Translations under genes and position numbers: made by a program
The notes under the pieces: generated by a model
What the model was told of the DNA's origin: nothing
The model's input: only the letters and a program-made list of their open reading frames with translations
Database searches by the model: none
Part shown: piece by piece, positions 14,687 through 23,880 of the stretch
Position numbering within the stretch: position 1 is the stretch's first letter
Layout of the letters: every line of letters begins with the position of its first letter
Assembly (NCBI RefSeq): GCF_016403105.1
Contig: NZ_CP046155.1
Location: 620,001 to 684,000, forward strand
Length of the DNA: 64,000 nucleotides
DNA from: Leptolyngbya sp. BL0902
GTDB taxonomy: Bacteria > Cyanobacteriota > Cyanobacteriia > Phormidesmidales > Phormidesmidaceae
Direction of reading: 5' to 3'

Positions 14687-17287
14687 TTAACCTGAAACCT
14701 CCTGCTGGTAGGGCTGTAATGCCTGATCCAAGCTGGGCAAAAAGACCGGGGAGAAAATCACCTCAGGGAAAAATTTTACCATCGGCACATTTTCTACGCG
14801 AGGATAAAAATCCGATGGCGTTGGCCCATCAATGTGACGACTCAGCACCCCAAACCCCAGTCGCCCGCTGCGGGGTTGCCAGACGGGGGCGGTGCGTTGC
14901 AGCCAATCTTTGAAGTTGGTGGCGTTGTCCATGCTGGCCACCAAGTTGGCAATTATCTCAGGGTCGGGCAGACTGTCCGCCAGTTGAGGGAGGTCTTCGG
15001 GTTGCGTCACCCAGGCTCTCTCTAGCAGGGTTTGGCGTTGATCGGGGGTTTGCCAGGCCGCGATGGCGTACTTGGCTGGGCTTTCGGGTAGCTGGTCTGG
15101 ATTCACCCTACCCCCCTGGCTCAGGGTGAGGAGCGCTTCTTGAAGGGGGCCGCCTGTCCAATCCTCGGCGGCGGCCGCAACGTCACCGAGCCACCAGCGC
15201 AGGGTGCCGCGCCCCTGGTGCAGGAAGGCAGTGAGGCCAGGATCGGTACTTTGGTTGAGGAGGTCTTGGTAGAGCGTAGCTAGGCGTTCGGTGACGGGGG
15301 CGTAGAGGGGCGCTAGGGGGCCGAACTGCCACATGGGGCTAGTGAGCACGACCGGATGGCGGAGGAGTTCTAGGGCAAAGGCGGTGGTGGCACAGTCTGT
15401 ATCGCCCTGCCGCAGACAGCTAAAGCCCAGGCCAAAAAAGACCCCCGGCTTGGCGGGCAGGAGGGCAATGGATCGCTGAAAGGCGGCCTGGGCGGCTTCA
15501 GGCTGCTGGTTCTCGACCAACAGCCAGCCCAGGTTAGAGTGGCCGAATTCTTGATAGGGCACCGTGGCGTTACCCACCTCAAACCAGCGGATGGCATCCT
15601 GCCGCAGGGCCGTTTGCAGGTCGGGGTTATCGGTCACTTGGTAGCTTAGATCGCCGAGGTTCCAGCCCAGTTGGTAGGGGTAGTACATTTCCCAGGGAGC
15701 CAACTGATGGGCACGTTCTAGCCGCTGCACAAAGCGGTTAATGTCCTGCTTGGCCAGGGCGGCAAAGCCATCACTGGAGAGGCCCCAGGCGCGATGGACG
15801 GGGGTGAGCCAAAGGGCCATGGCCAGGGTTGTGCCCAGCCCCAGCGCGACGAGAAGTTGAGAGGTTTTGGACGGTGGCTGGGGGCTGGTGGGCAGGGGGG
15901 GAGACCCAAGGGCGTGGGAGAGCGTGGCAAGGTAGAGGATCAGTACGCCGCTGATGGGCAGAATGTCGAGCTGGTAGTCGGTGAGGCTAAGGAGGGCAAA
16001 GCCGACCCCGGCAGCAACGATGCACCACACCATGAGCGGGGGCAGGCCAGAGGGCGTTTGGTGGGCACCGTTGCGAATCCAGCGCATCCCCAGGACAAGG
16101 ATCACCCCTGCTAGGGCAACCGGAACCATGACGCCCCAAATCCCCAGTTCTCCCCAGAGCTGAGCCGGGGTGCTGTGCAGTTGAAATTGCAGTTCGGCGT
16201 CGCGTCCGGCCCAGTGGGGGCGGTAGGCTTGGTAAACCAGGGGCACACTACCCGGCCCTAGCCCCGTAAACGGAGCGCTTTGGCCCATGTGCCAGCCCAC
16301 GGCATTGGTAACGGCCCGGTAGGATAGCTCTCCCCCGGCTAGATTGCCGCTGGTGAGGCCAGCTAGGGCCTGACGCAAACGGCTATTGCTGAAGATTAAG
16401 GCCAACACTAGGGCCATGGCCGCCGCGCCCCCAGCCAGCACCCAGCGCCGAGGCAGGGGGCTGTAGATCAGCGCCACCCCCAGGCCCACCAACCCCGCCG
16501 CCGCCAAGGCCAGCCAGCCGCCCCGAGAACTGGTGGTATAGAGGTTGGCCAAGCCTAGGCCAATGGCCCCCAGCCACAGCCAGCGCCGCCAGTCCTTCGC
16601 CATCCACCCCAGCCCCACAAACAGGGGCAGCACCAGTACCAGATAGCCTGCCACATAGTTTTGGTGGCCGATGGGTTGCCAATTCCGCAGACTGGTGAAC
16701 TGAAAACTAAAGGCGGTTTCAACTCCGTACTGCTGAAGCGCCTGCAACCGGGCCAGTTCGGGCCGATAGATCTGCAAAACCCACAGCGTCAAACTCACGA
16801 CCACAAAGGCCAGGGCCACATAACCTTGAACTTCTAGCGCCGCCTGAACCCGATGGGTGGTTGTCAACCATCCCCGCAGGGCGTAGAGGGCCGCGATGCC
16901 CCCCAGGGCTGCCCAGCCGTACCACAGGGCTTGGCCATGGAACTCTGCGGCTAGGGTGGAAATACCGAGCCCCACCACTGCTAGGACAACGACGCCATCT
17001 AGCCCCGATCCCAGGGCCAAGGAGGCTAGGGGCCGATGCCACCCCTGCCACAACAGCCAAAGGATGGGCAGCAGGATCGCCACCTGCCACAGAAACACCC
17101 AGGGCCAAGCCACCATCATCGTGCTGCTGCCAGGGAGCAGGGTGAAGAGGACATAGAGCGCTAGGGTGAGCAGGCCCAAGAGGGTACCGTCCCCGGTATC
17201 TCTGGGCGAACCTGGGCGAGATGCCGGGGATCCTTTCTGGGAGGCCGCCTGGGGCGATGGTTGAGGCAGAGGTTCGGGCTGGGTCAC
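14687..17287 (-). CDS. O-antigen ligase/polymerase-like membrane protein with C-terminal TPR region (copy 1)
   Basis: The 866-residue protein has about ten hydrophobic helices in its first 460 residues. It carries the Wzy/WaaL-type signature around residues 340-385: FTGLGPGSVPLVYQAYRPHW, then the HSTPAQLWGELGIWG loop. The remaining 400 residues are helical repeats that read as TPR units (for example VENQQPEAAQAAFQRSIALLPAKPGVFFGLGFSCLRQGDTD). Such proteins join or polymerise glycan chains on lipid carriers at the periplasmic face, but the substrate is unknown. The start is GTG (17285-17287). It is paralogous to the gene at 18045-20585, with an FMN reductase between them. IctB-type proteins share only the membrane half. 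Confidence 0.82.
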   Translation of the reverse strand: MTQPEPLPQPSPQAASQKGSPASRPGSPRDTGDGTLLGLLTLALYVLFTLLPGSSTMMVAWPWVFLWQVAILLPILWLLWQGWHRPLASLALGSGLDGVVVLAVVGLGISTLAAEFHGQALWYGWAALGGIAALYALRGWLTTTHRVQAALEVQGYVALAFVVVSLTLWVLQIYRPELARLQALQQYGVETAFSFQFTSLRNWQPIGHQNYVAGYLVLVLPLFVGLGWMAKDWRRWLWLGAIGLGLANLYTTSSRGGWLALAAAGLVGLGVALIYSPLPRRWVLAGGAAAMALVLALIFSNSRLRQALAGLTSGNLAGGELSYRAVTNAVGWHMGQSAPFTGLGPGSVPLVYQAYRPHWAGRDAELQFQLHSTPAQLWGELGIWGVMVPVALAGVILVLGMRWIRNGAHQTPSGLPPLMVWCIVAAGVGFALLSLTDYQLDILPISGVLILYLATLSHALGSPPLPTSPQPPSKTSQLLVALGLGTTLAMALWLTPVHRAWGLSSDGFAALAKQDINRFVQRLERAHQLAPWEMYYPYQLGWNLGDLSYQVTDNPDLQTALRQDAIRWFEVGNATVPYQEFGHSNLGWLLVENQQPEAAQAAFQRSIALLPAKPGVFFGLGFSCLRQGDTDCATTAFALELLRHPVVLTSPMWQFGPLAPLYAPVTERLATLYQDLLNQSTDPGLTAFLHQGRGTLRWWLGDVAAAAEDWTGGPLQEALLTLSQGGRVNPDQLPESPAKYAIAAWQTPDQRQTLLERAWVTQPEDLPQLADSLPDPEIIANLVASMDNATNFKDWLQRTAPVWQPRSGRLGFGVLSRHIDGPTPSDFYPRVENVPMVKFFPEVIFSPVFLPSLDQALQPYQQEVSG

Positions 17288-17370
17288 GGCATCTTCGTTC
17301 AGAGCACGGCTATGTCGTGATCCTAAAGGATGGGTGGGCCTTTTGGATAAAGGCCGGGATGCGGGGGCAA

Positions 17371-17886
17371 CTAGACCGTGGCAGGCACCCCCGCAAAGGC
17401 GGGCTCTAGGGTTGCCAGTTGGGCAACGAGAGCGGCAATGGCTTCGGGGTTGGCCGCTTTGTGGGCATTGGCGACCACTTCTCGACCGAGGACATTACAG
17501 CCCAGGTGCGCCAACTGTTGACGCATCGCTAGACCCACCTTTTGGCCGCCGCCGCCGCTGTGGCTTGCTAAGGCTGCCGGACGACCGTTGAACAGCGCCC
17601 GAAAGTCCTCGGTGCTAACCGACAGCCAAGCGATGGCATTACTGACCACCGGGGGGATGGAGCCGTTATACTCCGGGGCACAGACCACCAGGCTGCGATG
17701 GTGACGCAGGGCTTGGGCAAGCTGGGCTAACCCTGGGCCAGCCTCCCCCACCACCGAATCGTAAAGGGGCAAATGGAGATCAGGCAGGCTGACGACCTCG
17801 GCCGTCACGCCCTGTTTGGTGGACTCCTCGGCAAAGGCGCGGGCTAGGGCTAAGTTGTTGCCGTTAGTGGCAGAGAGAATCAGCAT
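17371..17886 (-). CDS. NADPH-dependent FMN reductase (flavodoxin fold)
   Basis: The 171-residue protein has the family layout: a short first strand with the phosphate-binding loop SATNGNNLALARAF (residues 5-18), then the signature PEYNGSIPPV at 71-80, which contacts the flavin. A later stretch, ASHSGGGGQKVGLAMRQQL, is also typical. It should reduce FMN, quinones or azo compounds with NAD(P)H in the cytoplasm. It stands between two Wzy-like genes on the same strand, 83 bp upstream of one and 158 bp downstream of the other. No mechanistic link to glycan assembly is apparent. Confidence 0.87.
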   Translation of the reverse strand: MLILSATNGNNLALARAFAEESTKQGVTAEVVSLPDLHLPLYDSVVGEAGPGLAQLAQALRHHRSLVVCAPEYNGSIPPVVSNAIAWLSVSTEDFRALFNGRPAALASHSGGGGQKVGLAMRQQLAHLGCNVLGREVVANAHKAANPEAIAALVAQLATLEPAFAGVPATV

Positions 17887-18044
17887 GGAGATAACCGATT
17901 AATAATTGTTAACAAACTTGTGGTGTGTTCAATGTAGCGCACATGGCTAGGGTTTATGGCCCTTGGTTGGGCGGTTGGGGGAGCGAAGCTCAGGTTCGTG
18001 GGCCGAGGGTTTTGCCCTTGGAGCGACACACCTTGAGGGGATAT

Positions 18045-20585
18045 TTAATGGGCAGATTGCCCGGTGGAGAGAGCCCGATAGCGCCCGGTGACGGTGGGAT
18101 GAGCTAGGCCCAGAGCTGTAGTTTTGAGGCTTTCTAGGCGCTGATCTAACGCCGGAAACTCCCTCGGCCAGGGCTGAAAAAGCCCTAGTTTGCGGATCAC
18201 CAGATGGGTTTCTAGGCTGGGTGGGGCCAGCATTTGGGTGATGGCTTGGGCCTGGGCATTGCGGTAGGCGAAGGCTAGCCCCCCTCGGTAGGAGCGGTCT
18301 GGGGGCAGGGGCAGGGATGTCAGCCACGACCGCAGCGGTTGAATAGCCAGGGTGTCGGCCAGACGCAGGGTATCGAGGGTCAGAGATCCGCCCGCCTGAA
18401 GGTCGTTCTGGGTGTAGGCGGGCCAGTGGGTGTCTGGGTCGAGCCATGCCGCCATCAAGAGAGCGGGCGGTGGGGCATCCGTGGCGATCAGGCTTTCTAG
18501 ATGGGCTAGGGCAGCGGCAGGATCGGTGTCAGCCCAGAAGACGGCAGGCAAGAAGGGCCGCAATCGGCTGGTATCCAAAGACGCCAGCGGTTGTCCGACC
18601 CACCAGCCCAGGACAGCACGGGTTTCGTACAGAACGCCGTAGCCCGGATCGCTGGCATTCACCTCGGCCAGCAGGTGATCGTATTCCGCCAGGGTTGCGC
18701 TGACCACAGCGGGATAGATCGCTTGTAGGGGCGGGCTTTGCCACAGTGGATAGGTGAGGGAGGCCGGATTGACCAGGGCTTCTAGGGTAAAGGCCGCGAT
18801 GGCCTGGGCCGCTTGGTCGGTGGCTAAGAGTAGTTCCCCCAGCAGCCAGTAGCCGTAGTGGCGGTGGCGGGGCAGGATCTGGACGGATCGCTGGGCGTAG
18901 GTCAAGGCTTGGGCAGGGTCGTCGGGCTGGTAGAGTACCGCCAGATTTTGGTTAAACCAGACATCATTGGGAGCAGCGGCTTGGGCCTGCTGGGCATAGT
19001 CCACCGCGAGGGCACGCACCCTGACCTTGGCTTCAGAATCGCCCAGTAGCTCACTCAGGTCTTGGAAGGACTCGCTGGCCATGGCGGCGGCGGTTGGATC
19101 CCAGGGACTGAGTAGGGTGGCTTGGTGCCAGCGGGTATCGGCCAGATTGACGGCTTGACGGTCAAAGGCGGCTTTGGCCTGAGCCCCCAGACCCACCGTG
19201 AGCGCAAAGGGCAACCAGAGGTAGACCAGGAGCCCAACCCCGGCCCAGACGACCAAGCTGGCCAGCCGACGGTGGGCGGGCAGAATGGTGCGGCTGGGTA
19301 ATCCATAGGCATCGGCAAGGCTGATCAGCAGTACGACCAGGGCCACCAGGGTGCCAGAAATGGGGATATTTTCGAGCTGATAATCCGTCAGGCTAGACAC
19401 GCCATAGGCCACAAACGCGCCGCCAATGCCCCCCAAAAGGTGCCGATCCGCCGTCGCCAAGGGCAACTGCCACAGTTGCCACAGCCGTCGGCCCAGCCAA
19501 AACAGCCCCGCTAGGTATAGGATCAGCCCCGGCAGGCCCAACTCCCCCGCAATCTGCACCGGGGTATTGTGCAACTGCTGAATGTGATCCAGTCCGGCCC
19601 CGGTTTCAATCGGGCGATAGAGGTTAGACATCCGACTCATCACCCCCGGCCCCACCCCCACCCAGGGGCGATCTGCCAAAATATTGCCCCCCAGCCGCAG
19701 CATAAACCAGCGATCCAGGGTGGGGCCATCCGCAGCGCCTGCCATGCTAAACCAACCGCGCAGGCGAGGGTTGAGGCCCAGGGCCAGCCCCATCGCCCCC
19801 AGGGGCACTACCCCCATCAGCCCCCAACGCCAGCGGTGATCCTGGTGAGCCCTGCCTAGGCCCCAGGCCCAGGCCCCGACTAGCCAGACGATAAAACCCA
19901 AGGCAGCTCCTCGGGAGCCACTGAGGTAGAGGGCGGTGGTGATTAGACCTACGGCTCCGGCAGCGGCCCAACGCCCAGGGCCAGACAGGGCCAGAGCTGC
20001 CGCCACCGCCAGGGGCAGCGTCAGCCCCAGATAGCCGCCCACAAAGTTGTGGTGTCCTAGGGGCTGGTGGTTGCGAAGGGCCGTAAAAAAGTCCTGGGAT
20101 GACAAAGAGGCTACCTCGGGCCAACCCAGAGCCAAGCTGATGAGCGCCACCCCCGCCGCCACCGCCACCAGGCCCAGCCACAGCCGCCGCCGCGTTAACG
20201 CGCTGTGATCAACTTCATTGCGGTAGGCGTAGAGTCCGAGGGCGTAGGCGATGACTACGCTGGTATTCCACAGCGCCACCCGAGGAAACGGCGATGCCAG
20301 ACTCGATAGGGCCAGAACAGCCCCCAGGGCCAACAGCCAGCTATCCAACCCGTGCCCTAGGCCCAGGAAGGGCCGCTGAAGCTGTCGCAGCCGTAGAATT
20401 AGCCCCACCAGTAGGGCCAAAAATCCTCCCTGCCACAGCCCCAGCCAGGGCCAGTCCACCATGCGAAAGTAGCTCAAGGGCAGCCAGCTCAAGATCACCA
20501 GCACAGCGAGGTGAGGCCCCAGCCGCCAGGGCCATCGCCGCTGACCAGGGCAGGAACGGGGGGAATCGAGAGATGGGGCGGTCAT
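18045..20585 (-). CDS. O-antigen ligase/polymerase-like membrane protein with C-terminal TPR region (copy 2)
   Basis: This is a paralogue of the protein at 14687-17287, with the same plan: multiple membrane helices over about 450 residues, then a helical TPR-like tail. The ligase-type signature reads WVGVGPGVMSRMSNLYRPIE, followed by HIQQLHNTPVQIAGELGLPG. I start it at the ATG at 20583-20585 (MTAPSLDSPRS, 846 residues). An upstream start at 20663 would add 26 residues of unlikely leader. Both copies share the phrase SSLTDYQLE/SLTDYQLD in the last membrane region. The gene is divergent from pstS and shares a 175-bp promoter region with it. Confidence 0.82.
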   Translation of the reverse strand: MTAPSLDSPRSCPGQRRWPWRLGPHLAVLVILSWLPLSYFRMVDWPWLGLWQGGFLALLVGLILRLRQLQRPFLGLGHGLDSWLLALGAVLALSSLASPFPRVALWNTSVVIAYALGLYAYRNEVDHSALTRRRLWLGLVAVAAGVALISLALGWPEVASLSSQDFFTALRNHQPLGHHNFVGGYLGLTLPLAVAAALALSGPGRWAAAGAVGLITTALYLSGSRGAALGFIVWLVGAWAWGLGRAHQDHRWRWGLMGVVPLGAMGLALGLNPRLRGWFSMAGAADGPTLDRWFMLRLGGNILADRPWVGVGPGVMSRMSNLYRPIETGAGLDHIQQLHNTPVQIAGELGLPGLILYLAGLFWLGRRLWQLWQLPLATADRHLLGGIGGAFVAYGVSSLTDYQLENIPISGTLVALVVLLISLADAYGLPSRTILPAHRRLASLVVWAGVGLLVYLWLPFALTVGLGAQAKAAFDRQAVNLADTRWHQATLLSPWDPTAAAMASESFQDLSELLGDSEAKVRVRALAVDYAQQAQAAAPNDVWFNQNLAVLYQPDDPAQALTYAQRSVQILPRHRHYGYWLLGELLLATDQAAQAIAAFTLEALVNPASLTYPLWQSPPLQAIYPAVVSATLAEYDHLLAEVNASDPGYGVLYETRAVLGWWVGQPLASLDTSRLRPFLPAVFWADTDPAAALAHLESLIATDAPPPALLMAAWLDPDTHWPAYTQNDLQAGGSLTLDTLRLADTLAIQPLRSWLTSLPLPPDRSYRGGLAFAYRNAQAQAITQMLAPPSLETHLVIRKLGLFQPWPREFPALDQRLESLKTTALGLAHPTVTGRYRALSTGQSAH

Positions 20586-20760
20586 GGTGGCGGAGCAGAC
20601 GGGATCGTGGTGGAAGCAGTGTACCCCACTTGCTTTCTTAAACTTTTGTTGAGATTGAGACAATGTAGCCTTAGCCCAGCCATGAGGTGGGCTTAGGGTG
20701 AGCCTCGTATTCTCTGGGGTGGCGAATTTTTCTTCCTTCGACCGCTACGGAGAATGTCCT

Positions 20761-21681
20761 ATGGTGATGAGCAGACAAAAATTGAACCGCTATGCCCTGG
20801 CTAGCGCAGTAGCGGCCACCGTGGCCCTAGGGTTTGGAGCGACCCCAGCCCCGGCCCAAAGCTCCCTGGTGCAGGTGGATGGGTCTAGCACGGTGTTTCC
20901 CATCAGCGAGGCCATGGCCGAGGAGTTTATCGCGGCGAACCCCGGCACGCAAGTCACCGTGGGCGTATCGGGCACCGGGGGCGGTTTTCGCAAGTTCTGT
21001 GCTGGCGAACTCGACATCACCGGAGCCTCCCGCCCCATCCGCGACACGGAAGCTGAACTCTGCGCGGCAGCGGGGGTGGAGTACGTGGAAGTGCCCATCG
21101 CCATCGATGCCCTGACGGTAGTGATTCACCCCGAAAACACCTGGGCCAGAAGCATGACCGTGGATCAGCTTCGCACCCTGTGGGAGCCCGCTGCCGAAGG
21201 GCGCATCACCCGCTGGAATCAGATCAATCCGAGCTGGCCCAACACCCCGATTTCCCTCTACGGCCCCGGCACCGACTCCGGCACCTTCGACTACTTTACC
21301 GAGGCCATTATCGGCACCTCTGGCGAAAGCCGCACTGACTACACCGCCAGCGAAGATGACAACATCCTAGTAGTGGGGGTTTCCCGCGACCGGGGTGCCC
21401 TGGGCTACTTTGGCATGGCCTACTACCTAGAAAACCAAGGGCGCTTAGCTTCGGTGGCCATCGATGGGGTTGCTGCCACGGTTGAGCACGTGGCCGATGG
21501 CACCTATGTACCCCTCTCCCGACCGATCTTTTTCTACGTGAGGAAGAGCAGCCTAGAGTCTCGGCCTGAGGTACGCGCCTTTGTGGAGTTCATGCTAGAC
21601 CAGGCCACCACCCTGGTTCCTGAGGTGGGCTATGTGCCGCTGCCTACCGAACGCTACAGCGCCATTCGGTCTGGGCTGTAG
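20761..21681 (+). CDS. pstS: Phosphate ABC transporter substrate-binding protein PstS
   Basis: PstS binds orthophosphate outside the cytoplasmic membrane for the PstCAB importer. The 306-residue product from the ATG at 20761 has a signal peptide (residues 1-30, ASAVAATVALGFGATPAPAQ) and begins the mature domain with VQVDGSSTVFPISEAMAEEF. It contains the phosphate-site motifs GVSGTGGGFRKFC and GPGTDSGTFDYFTEAI. GGAGA at 20750-20754 is a suitable ribosome site and decides against the upstream GTG at 20698. No pstC, pstA or pstB follows. Two TonB-like genes come next instead, so this is an orphan binding protein, as often seen for extra PstS copies in cyanobacteria. Confidence 0.94.
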   Translation: MVMSRQKLNRYALASAVAATVALGFGATPAPAQSSLVQVDGSSTVFPISEAMAEEFIAANPGTQVTVGVSGTGGGFRKFCAGELDITGASRPIRDTEAELCAAAGVEYVEVPIAIDALTVVIHPENTWARSMTVDQLRTLWEPAAEGRITRWNQINPSWPNTPISLYGPGTDSGTFDYFTEAIIGTSGESRTDYTASEDDNILVVGVSRDRGALGYFGMAYYLENQGRLASVAIDGVAATVEHVADGTYVPLSRPIFFYVRKSSLESRPEVRAFVEFMLDQATTLVPEVGYVPLPTERYSAIRSGL

Positions 21682-21769
21682 ACTGCTGGTTGCCCACGCC
21701 AACCCCTGCCCATAGCCCTTGGGATGATGGTGTTCCAAGGGCTTTCTGCCCCCTTTGGTACTCAGCCCT

Positions 21770-22702
21770 ATGGCCCCCGACGCCTCTCCACGGATCAACC
21801 CCTTGTCCCGGCTGGCGGGGCTCAAGACACGCTGTGTCTCGCCCACGGCTTGGGCGGGCCTGCTGGTTAGTCTATCCCTAGCGATCCATGGGCTGTTGTT
21901 GATGGCACCGATGCCCCCTCGCCCAGAGGCCACTGAGGAGGAAACAACGGCTGAGGAGGACTTTGTGGATCTGCTCAGTATTAGCTCCCTGGCGGCTCCG
22001 GCCCCGGTGGCTGAGACACCGCCGCCCGCTGAGACGCCCACGGCCCCACCCCCAGCCGCCCCACCCCCAGCCGCCCCAGTGGCTCCTCGAATACCCGATT
22101 CATACCCCGATCCCAGCGCGTTGCCGCCCGCCCCCCTAGAGGCCATGGCCCCAACGGATCTCCCTACGGACAACCTCGAAGCCTTGAGCACCGAGGATAA
22201 CCCACCCGTGGCCTCCTCTACGGCGGTGGATTCCAACCCTCCCCCCGTGGTGGTGCAGGAACAGGAAGTTTTGGAAATTGTGACGCGCCTCACTCGCGGG
22301 TCGGGAGAAAGCGATTTTGACTCCACAGCTACTTCCTTTCCCGCCGTAGCGTTTTTAACCCGACGTGGTATCCAGGAGTGGTCGGCCCAGCAGCAAGCCT
22401 GCTTTTTTAGCCAAATTAGCGCCGATAGCTACCGCTTGGCTCCGGGGGCTGTGGATGTCCGCTACCTGACCCGCAATGTGCAATTCATCGAGCAGCAGGA
22501 TGTGCCCCGCACCTTTCCAACGCCCGCCTACCAGGTCAGCCCCCTACCGGAGGGCTACTGTGGCCACACCCTGTTTCAAGTGTTGCAGGGAGGACAGCCG
22601 CTGCTGTTTATTTCCGTTGTGGGGCTGGGGGTGGGCAATCCCCAGGCCACGGGCCTCGTGATCATTTGGTCGTCTGACCCTAGGCTGGGCTGGGCTCCCT
22701 GA
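21770..22702 (+). CDS. Proline-rich anchored protein, TonB-like (copy 1)
   Basis: From the ATG at 21770 the product has 310 residues. A membrane anchor lies at about residues 27-47 (LLVSLSLAIHGLLLMAP). A long acidic and proline-rich stretch follows (about 50-160, with PAETPTAPPPAAPPPAAPV), then a compact C-terminal domain of roughly 130 residues with three cysteines (QQACFFSQISAD, EGYCGHTLFQV). This topology, a short cytoplasmic tail, anchor, rigid Pro-rich arm and terminal domain, is that of TonB energy transducers, but the C-terminal domain is not clearly TonB_C. A TTG at 21755 is an alternative start. It stands 88 bp after pstS and 101 bp before a second protein of the same design. Confidence 0.65.
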   Translation: MAPDASPRINPLSRLAGLKTRCVSPTAWAGLLVSLSLAIHGLLLMAPMPPRPEATEEETTAEEDFVDLLSISSLAAPAPVAETPPPAETPTAPPPAAPPPAAPVAPRIPDSYPDPSALPPAPLEAMAPTDLPTDNLEALSTEDNPPVASSTAVDSNPPPVVVQEQEVLEIVTRLTRGSGESDFDSTATSFPAVAFLTRRGIQEWSAQQQACFFSQISADSYRLAPGAVDVRYLTRNVQFIEQQDVPRTFPTPAYQVSPLPEGYCGHTLFQVLQGGQPLLFISVVGLGVGNPQATGLVIIWSSDPRLGWAP

Positions 22703-22803
22703 ACCGTCCTTCCTGCCCCAACTCGACAGCCCCCTGGATCTATCCTGAATAGGAAGCCCTATTGATAACGGGCCACCAAACCGTTGCCTCACTTCGTGCT
22801 GCT

Positions 22804-23880
22804 ATGACGTTCCAACCCCCGCCACCCCCAAAATATAGGCTGCCGTGGCAACGCCTGCTCGCCCCCATGCTGCTGGCCTCCCTGGGGCTGCATGGGGCCG
22901 TTCTGATGCTGCCCACCGGAGCCTCGGACGATAGCCCCATTCCCCCACCCGATCCAGAGCAGGACAGTGTGGCGATGACCCGCGTTCTCCCGACGTCTTC
23001 CTCCGAAGGGGAAGACCCGATGGCAGGCCAATCCCCAGGGGAGGCTGTTACCCCAATGGCGGGGACACAACCTCTGAACCCAGCCGGAGTAGGCGTTCCA
23101 GCCCAGCGCTCGCCTGAGGTTGCCCCCACCGCGCCCCGGACAGTTCCCCAACCCAGGACAGTTCCTCGCAACCTGGAAAATGTCGGCCAGGGCCAATCGT
23201 CCCCCAATCCTGCGCCTCCCCCCAGCCCTGCCGCCAACCGCCCCCAGGCCGGGGAAACGGAAAGCCCCCGCCCCAGCGCCCCCAGCCCTGCGGCTCCGCC
23301 TGTGCCTAGCGATAGACCTGCGCCCGCTGATTCATCTAACCAAAACCAAACCCAGGCGCTCATGGCCTCGCCCCGCCCCCCTGCCCTGGCAGGAAATAAC
23401 CTGCGGGAGCAATTGCAGGCCCATGCGGCTCGGCTGAACTTTTCCCCATCTCGGCTCAATCGGCTGACGGAGGCCCTGCGGGAACGGTTTAGCTACAACG
23501 CCGTAACCAGCACCGAGGAAGCCTTTGCCACCAACTACCGTGAATGGCAGACGCAGATTCGCCAAGACACCGGGATCGCTGATCTCACAGCGGAGACCCT
23601 GCCCGACCCCGTGGCTGTGGCCTATTGGCAGCGGGCTTGCCTCAATCCGGCCCCTGGCCTAGTTAGGGTGGGCCTTGTGGTCAATCCCGATGGCTCCCAC
23701 CACGGCCCGCCCGTCCTATTGCAAAGCTCTGGCTATGGGGCCGTCGATGACTGGGCCTTGAGCACCCTGGCCGACCAAACGCTCCCAACGGCCAATCAGG
23801 TCAGCGCCTATATCCTCACGGTTGAACCCAGCGTGGAGGCTGGGCCGAATCCCTGCCTTGCGGTTACGCCTAGTACCTAA
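22804..23880 (+). CDS. TonB-family-like protein (copy 2)
   Basis: From the ATG at 22804 the product has 358 residues: an N-terminal anchor (about residues 18-36, LLAPMLLASLGLHGAVLML), then a long Pro/Ser/Ala-rich linker (about 40-215). The C-terminal domain has the TonB-type segment RVGLVVNPDGSHHGPPVLLQSSGYGAVDDWALSTL (position about 295-330). TonB proteins span the periplasm to energise outer-membrane receptors using ExbB/ExbD, which are not in this window. The same architecture as its upstream neighbour suggests ancient duplication. It lies in a same-strand run pstS-copy 1-copy 2, so a role in phosphate-responsive envelope transport is a possible inference. Confidence 0.7.
   Translation: MTFQPPPPPKYRLPWQRLLAPMLLASLGLHGAVLMLPTGASDDSPIPPPDPEQDSVAMTRVLPTSSSEGEDPMAGQSPGEAVTPMAGTQPLNPAGVGVPAQRSPEVAPTAPRTVPQPRTVPRNLENVGQGQSSPNPAPPPSPAANRPQAGETESPRPSAPSPAAPPVPSDRPAPADSSNQNQTQALMASPRPPALAGNNLREQLQAHAARLNFSPSRLNRLTEALRERFSYNAVTSTEEAFATNYREWQTQIRQDTGIADLTAETLPDPVAVAYWQRACLNPAPGLVRVGLVVNPDGSHHGPPVLLQSSGYGAVDDWALSTLADQTLPTANQVSAYILTVEPSVEAGPNPCLAVTPST

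Follow-up and report, generated by a model that had tools for sequence, protein, structure and literature searches.

Paired WaaL-fold glycan transferases with tetratricopeptide repeat arms in Leptolyngbya sp. BL0902 and their possible link to type IV pilins

We analyzed a stretch of 64,000 nucleotides from Leptolyngbya sp. BL0902 (contig NZ_CP046155.1, positions 620,001 to 684,000; hereafter the window), which carries two large genes for WaaL-type glycan transferases, here called A and B, and a gene of the FMN-reductase family, R, between them (Table 1). The genome of the window was searched whole (4.71 Mb, 6 contigs). The three genes are transcribed from the minus strand in the order A, R and B, with intergenic gaps of 158 bp between A and R and 83 bp between R and B. 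An earlier note on this DNA, made from the letters alone, had described two Wzy/WaaL-like paralogues with tetratricopeptide repeat (TPR) tails in tandem and a flavin reductase between them. Both parts of this description were borne out by the open reading frames (ORFs), by the similarity of A and B and their Wzy_C, WaaL and TPR matches, and by a 171-residue FMN_red protein encoded on the same strand at that place. We found A and B to be two old, separately maintained members of a cyanobacterial family of WaaL-fold glycan transferases, and we tentatively favor the possibility that they are oligosaccharyltransferases that attach lipid-linked glycans to type IV pilins.

Table 1. Genes and domains of the A-R-B locus, in positions of the window.
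Feature	Positions	Strand	Details
A: WaaL-type glycan transferase with C-terminal TPR arm	18045..20585	minus	846 aa from ATG; Wzy_C, WaaL match, A clade
Wzy_C domain of A	19512..19952	minus	residues 238-384 of the 872-aa form
TPR arm of A	18339..19217	minus	about residues 483-775 of the 872-aa form; model against TPR chains
R: FMN-reductase-family gene, inserted bystander	17371..17886	minus	PF03358, 90.2 bits, cut-off 24
B: WaaL-type glycan transferase with C-terminal TPR arm	14687..17287	minus	866 aa, GTG start; Wzy_C, WaaL match, B clade
Wzy_C domain of B	16124..16561	minus	residues 243-388
TPR arm of B	14876..15811	minus	about residues 493-804; model and profile matches to TPR chains

The ORF of A stays open upstream to a TTG at 20663, and the ATG at 20585 is internal to it. 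The predicted local distance difference test (pLDDT) score of the longer form was below 50 at residues 1-44, and for this reason the start at 20585 is the likelier one.

A and B shared 31% identity across 684 residues (E 3e-49), and both matched Wzy_C above the curated cut-off of 31.7 bits, B with 60.2 bits and A with 55.5. Three further Wzy_C matches, in open frames of 457-501 aa, bring the genome-wide number to five. The domain was also found in all 25 B-type members compared (E up to 0.1) and in 22 of 23 A-type members (E up to 0.01). The predicted model of B was very good (mean pLDDT 92.9, predicted template modeling score 0.92) and that of A was good (85.6 and 0.84). Structural comparison revealed that the membrane halves of both proteins matched WaaL (7tpg, chain 7tpg_B), with a Z-score of 20.6 and a root mean square deviation (rmsd) of 5.0 between 377 aligned residues for B, and with a Z-score of 22.6 and an rmsd of 4.8 between 373 residues for A. 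The next-best structural matches, divisome complexes with FtsW, had Z-scores of 12.5-12.6. The C-terminal halves aligned with TPR superhelices, the matches being many ordinary TPR proteins that were all tied; PilW and PilF were among the matches of the A model and were given no weight, as they tied with the generic TPR chains. Pfam TPR families were detected in B below their cut-offs and in A not at all, and they were recognized in other members of both groups. The models suggest 13 membrane helices in both A and B; WaaL has 12. A thirteenth helix would place the TPR arm in the periplasm, together with the active-site loop. The charge pattern of the loops fits this predicted topology for most loops, not all: loop 406-416 of B showed no enrichment of lysine and arginine, and the charge contrast was weaker in A.

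We next consider the conserved residues. Seventy-one columns held the same residue in both groups (25 B-type and 23 A-type proteins), a column being counted as conserved when at least 92% of the B rows and 91% of the A rows agreed. These included, in B/A numbering, N210/N206, R255/R251, R324/R318, P339/P333, G342/G336, G344/G338, H371/H365, D437/D427 and Q439/Q429. In particular, a set of two arginines and a histidine (R255, R324 and H371 in B; R251, R318 and H365 in A) was kept in both groups, and its match to R215, R288 and H338 of E. coli WaaL rests on spacing, not on residue alignment (PMC3643930, which, like most papers cited here, was available in part). The residue spacings in A and B resemble those reported for PglL and WaaL in the accessible text of the same paper. 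The pattern G[HQ]xN was restricted to A and B among the five Wzy_C proteins of the genome, while [DE]x[PQ]L was present in A, in B and in one of the other three, there at the extreme C-terminus. With these residues conserved, both copies look catalytically intact.

To place A and B relative to each other, a tree of 129 rows, de-replicated from 174, was built by quick maximum likelihood (LG+G4, short search, midpoint root, no bootstrap; several long branches were flagged). A single branch, with an SH-aLRT support of 100, parted all 41 A rows from all 88 B rows. Judged from this tree, A and B are old paralogues, and a recent local duplication is ruled out by the two deep, separate groups. The family, searched with B-type rows, was present in 83 of 193 genomes of the class. 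A-type copies occurred mainly in the window's own taxonomic family. Within the genus, a third copy, A2, nests among them, while other families contributed three distant A rows (loci L122-L124).

A and B stood in tandem in 25 of the 80 named loci, that is, in the 27 loci with two family ORFs minus L171 and L211, which lack A and whose two ORFs are B-type parts of what seems to be a single split gene. No gene lay between A and B in 24 of these 25. In a second set of loci, A adjoined B in 23 (L068-L090), and R lay between them only in L068; the two sets share many genomes, and L068 is the same place as L142 of the first set (Phormidium FACHB-1136, G002). The adjacency is kept in many Leptolyngbya- and Nodosilinea-like genomes. 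The earlier note had allowed that the copies might prove to be unrelated acquisitions or to lack conserved synteny, and neither turned out to be the case. It had also suggested a heteromeric pair. As an obligate unit such a pair is unlikely, because B stood alone in the same gene cassette in L093, L095 and L097 and A stood alone in L125, and no second copy of the other type was found in the genomes of these four loci. The note's idea of S-layer glycans found no support here, where no test was aimed at it. In another genome (G029, L092:7205-12326), two A-type copies lay side by side instead of A and B. Gene calls in the loci of other genomes came from a simple script for ORFs, and some of the starts are wrong.

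The cassette itself was evident from the maps of relatives. In many of them the order was a WecG/TagA-family transferase, a WbaP-type polyprenyl glycosylphosphotransferase, A and B, facing a gene that we call F4 and then pilA, whose product carries Pilin_GH and N_methyl domains. A Wzx-type flippase was also part of the cassette in L084 and L095; that of L095 additionally contained a GT4 glycosyltransferase and two methyltransferases. Beyond pilA lay a gene identified as glcD in L095 and one identified as a CheA-like hybrid kinase in L125. Across the 80 named loci, WbaP was found within 3 kb in 36, WecG within 5 kb in 24, pilA within 10 kb in 12, F4 within 5 kb in 12 and ogt within 10 kb in 2; in the 51 loci whose flanks reached 5 kb or more on each side, the corresponding numbers were 27, 20, 10, 8 and 2. 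Eight loci of the genus had the third copy A2 between F4 and pilA (L116-L121, L126 and L127; a Pfam check of the pilin was made for L119). In L123, the genes downstream of an A relative encode HpsA (1589.9 bits against a cut-off of 400) and HpsB (257.7 bits against one of 150), with an intervening 112-aa ORF; L124 showed the same two gene families, by which alone its HpsA and HpsB were recognized, with a 149-aa ORF on the opposite strand between. In L122, an A relative lay beside F4, a GT41 protein and a methyltransferase. The family is therefore linked to WbaP-type and WecG-type transferases and, in several relatives, to pilA or hpsA-hpsB-type genes. The linkage to pilA could also be counted: a family member and pilA lay within 10 kb of each other in 15 of 60 class genomes (those of the 83 with a family member that also had pilA among the matches listed), and about 0.45 would be expected under random placement in 5-Mb genomes. 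The 15 close pairs belong to three families, nine to f1, three to f25 and three to f15, and independent events are far fewer than genomes. This count shows linkage, not cause.

Several features of these neighborhoods are described here in their own right. F4 encodes a protein of about 265 aa that recurs between the Wzy-TPR genes and pilA; the copy at L119:7391-8200 and 20 others were aligned, and the copy of the window genome (L129:8371-9183) is kept, apart from pilA. The protein had no Pfam gathering match, no NCBIfam match in the 21 members and no solved chain found by sequence, and a relationship to the TPR arm was rejected (hhalign probability 0.9 of 100). A methyltransferase of about 450 aa is conserved as well and is a candidate for methylating pilins; its gene adjoins pilA in the window genome (L139:7163-8518) and in L099 (L099:17650-19056), and adjoins the A relative in L122 (L122:11054-12403); the L122 protein was 47% identical over 438 residues to that of the window genome. 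In Phormidium FACHB-1136, the ORF downstream of B (L068:16171-16968) encodes an exosortase-dependent surface protein (XDP2), and the PEP_TPR_lipo model was matched by 12 of 25 B-type members through their TPRs. An exosortase link was rejected, since the recurring downstream gene elsewhere is F4.

We compared A and B with known systems of a similar plan. PglL of Neisseria and Acinetobacter likewise combines Wzy_C, a C-terminal TPR region and the two arginines and histidine at similar spacing. It often has pilin neighbors, as several relatives of A and B do; in the accessible text, 21 of 31 pglL genes adjoined pilin genes or lay close to them (PMC3643930). In contrast, Q178, E404 and P406 of PglL are replaced by H, D and Q in A and B, PglL H400 has no counterpart, and the PglL-specific families described below were not matched. 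PilO (TfpO) of Pseudomonas aeruginosa, a pilin transferase that resembles WaaL and whose gene adjoins that of the pilin, is described without PglL motifs, as are A and B; this likeness is one of description, not of sequence (PMC3643930). Likened by description as well is WsfB of Paenibacillus alvei, a predicted S-layer O-oligosaccharyltransferase in which Wzy_C is followed by a C-terminal TPR region, a combination described for the protein O-oligosaccharyltransferases WsfB and PglL (PMC2943079). WsfB differs from A and B in its Gram-positive S-layer acceptor. PilO is not known to have a long TPR arm. The GT41 protein Ogt shares the pilA neighborhood with the family, and ogt lies near B in L099, L175 and L190. 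Ogt is a soluble enzyme that works with nucleotide sugars and does not transfer lipid-linked glycans. According to the part of a review available to us, pilin modification is thought critical for functional cyanobacterial pili, and Ogt, whose gene lies beside a cyanobacterial pilA, is involved in PilA glycosylation (PMC12288463).

On this basis, transfer of lipid-linked glycans to type IV pilins is the reading that we tentatively favor. WbaP and WecG would start a glycan on undecaprenyl phosphate, Wzx would flip the undecaprenyl-linked glycan, and A or B would transfer it as a whole to a type IV pilin or to a pseudopilin, which the TPR arm, predicted to lie in the periplasm beside the active site, may hold as the acceptor. 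A and B would be alternative transferases, differing in pilin, site or glycan, instead of an obligate heteromer, and the reductase would take no part. Such an enzyme would work in the manner of PglL, PilO or WsfB without being a member of the PglL family.

A number of observations weigh against this proposal. No pilA was present within 10 kb in 68 of the 80 named loci, many of them on short contigs, nor in 41 of the 51 loci with flanks of 5 kb or more on each side, and among the matches listed no close pair with pilA was found in families other than the three mentioned. In the window genome, pilA, the WbaP-type orthologue (80% identical to that of a congener) and F4 lie apart from one another on contig C1; from the window alone no link to pili would be suspected, and the type IV pilin neighborhood of the relatives was likewise invisible to the earlier note, whose reading as a whole was partly supported. 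Downstream of B in Synechocystis salina lie modA and a modBC fusion. The model PglL_A (PF15864) did not match A or B even at an E-value of 10 and was not among the families shown for the 25 B-type members, and Wzy_C_2 (PF11846) likewise failed to match A or B even at an E-value of 10; these two results place A and B outside the PglL family. The R-P-G-G spacing, considered as a PglL-specific sign, proved to be generic, as it was present in all three other Wzy_C proteins of the genome. An oligosaccharyltransferase is also not required, because the known PilA glycosylation involves Ogt (PMC12288463, accessible part), and the link to HpsA and HpsB fits work on polysaccharides too.

The best surviving alternative, which we consider somewhat unlikely, is that A and B are Wzy polymerases, or a polymerase and a ligase, that serve an exopolysaccharide of the Wzx/Wzy type, possibly a polymer employed together with pili, such as hormogonium polysaccharide, the pilin neighborhood then reflecting a shared use in motility. 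The Wzx, glycosyltransferase, WecG and WbaP-type neighbors in relatives such as L084 and L095 (not in the window) are in line with this idea, as are the assignment of the WbaP-type neighbor to EPS_sugtrans and the HpsA/HpsB neighbors. A fixed pair of polymerase and ligase is at odds with the finding that either copy can stand alone in the cassette. The literature bears on the polymerase on both sides through sll0737 of Synechocystis PCC 6803. The genes sll0738 and sll0739 are modA and a modBC fusion (PMC5943405, seen in part); as modA and the modBC fusion follow B in Synechocystis salina, B would be the orthologue of sll0737, an assignment by gene position alone in which the PCC 6803 protein was not compared. 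Sll0737 is listed as Wzy(WaaL), in a paper whose accessible part also gives a cyanobacterial Wzy/WaaL group pattern, GH[HPQ]N[FY], that is present in B (GHQNY) and in A (GHHNF) (PMC4594306). In the parts available, sll0737 is filed as an exopolysaccharide polymerase and neither a TPR arm nor a pilin link is mentioned for it. Its deletion caused no obvious change in growth, total carbohydrate, or released or capsular polysaccharide, which speaks against a polymerase, and for which the authors invoked redundancy (PMC6562117, available in part); the terms pilA and motility are absent from the main text of that paper.

We regard it as distinctly unlikely that A and B are O-oligosaccharyltransferases for other envelope proteins, or of a general system in which the pilin linkage is incidental or marks one target among many. 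Their domain plan resembles that of WsfB and PglL (PMC2943079, part of the text), and many B loci have WbaP close by and lack pilA there (36 against 12 of the 80 named loci), both of which suit such a role; against it, no other protein gene recurred in the maps as pilA does, except F4, which is itself a neighbor of pilA. Improbable is a role as WaaL-type ligases joining O-antigen to the lipid A core: the fold and Wzy_C agree with it, and the O-antigen ligase model RfaL was weakly matched, in 3 of 25 B-type members only (best 0.015), whereas the TPR arm, the pilin neighbors and the two to three copies per genome do not, and we came upon no lipid A core gene in the maps, where none was searched for.

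Hardly credible, finally, is that A, R and B form one working unit, such as a heteromer with a redox partner: the shared strand, the short gaps and the same order in Phormidium FACHB-1136 suggest it, but no gene separates A and B in nearly all tandem loci, A-only and B-only loci exist, and R is mostly found elsewhere, so that a conserved unit is already contradicted. R matched FMN_red (PF03358) with an E-value of 1.3e-25. Its orthologues (at least 68% identity) were present in 21 of 26 genus genomes, the window genome included, and lay between A and B only in the window genome (G000) and in Phormidium FACHB-1136. In the other 19 of these 21 they were elsewhere, and in 4 of the 19 (G003, G014, G019 and G023) no A or B was found at all. 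In Leptolyngbyaceae M65_K2018_010, the nearest relative of these two strains in the tree, A and B overlap by 4 bp. The most economical explanation is that R was gained in the ancestor shared by the window strain and FACHB-1136. R is a recent insertion and a bystander, in keeping with the view of the earlier note that it has no expected role in glycan assembly; a function as working partner was rejected, since it is only in these two genomes that R lies between A and B. In seven genomes (L108, L109 and L111-L115) the flanks of the R orthologue represented several different neighborhoods, and this single gene seems to move often within the genus.

On its upstream side, A faces a pstS-family gene at 20698-21681. 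Proline-rich ORFs at 21755-22702 and 22762-23880 adjoin the latter, and this arrangement is kept in Phormidium FACHB-1136. A scan for promoters and terminators gave a result at chance level.

A broader proposal, which we hold to be on the doubtful side of possible, is that the family is the missing cyanobacterial oligosaccharyltransferase: a phylum-wide enzyme with a periplasmic, acceptor-holding TPR arm in place of the PglL signatures, whose paralogues A, B and A2 may be split among pilins and pseudopilins (PilA, HpsA/HpsB), and which has been misfiled as the exopolysaccharide polymerase Wzy. Such misfiling would explain why exopolysaccharide was unchanged in the sll0737 deletion. We found no earlier suggestion that the cyanobacterial family acts as a pilin oligosaccharyltransferase in the literature searched, which comprised few subscription papers and no supplementary files and was in part seen as excerpts. 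The names RntA and RntB, considered and rejected, belong to pilin-like proteins of Synechococcus elongatus (PMC7125226, accessible part). The neighborhoods name a second and mechanistically different candidate besides Ogt, with a matching cassette for a lipid-linked glycan. The published sll0737 mutant without a phenotype thereby becomes a testable case, in which the mass of PilA1 and motility would be assessed instead of exopolysaccharide. If the proposal is true, the Wzy label of one cyanobacterial Wzy/WaaL group would be corrected.

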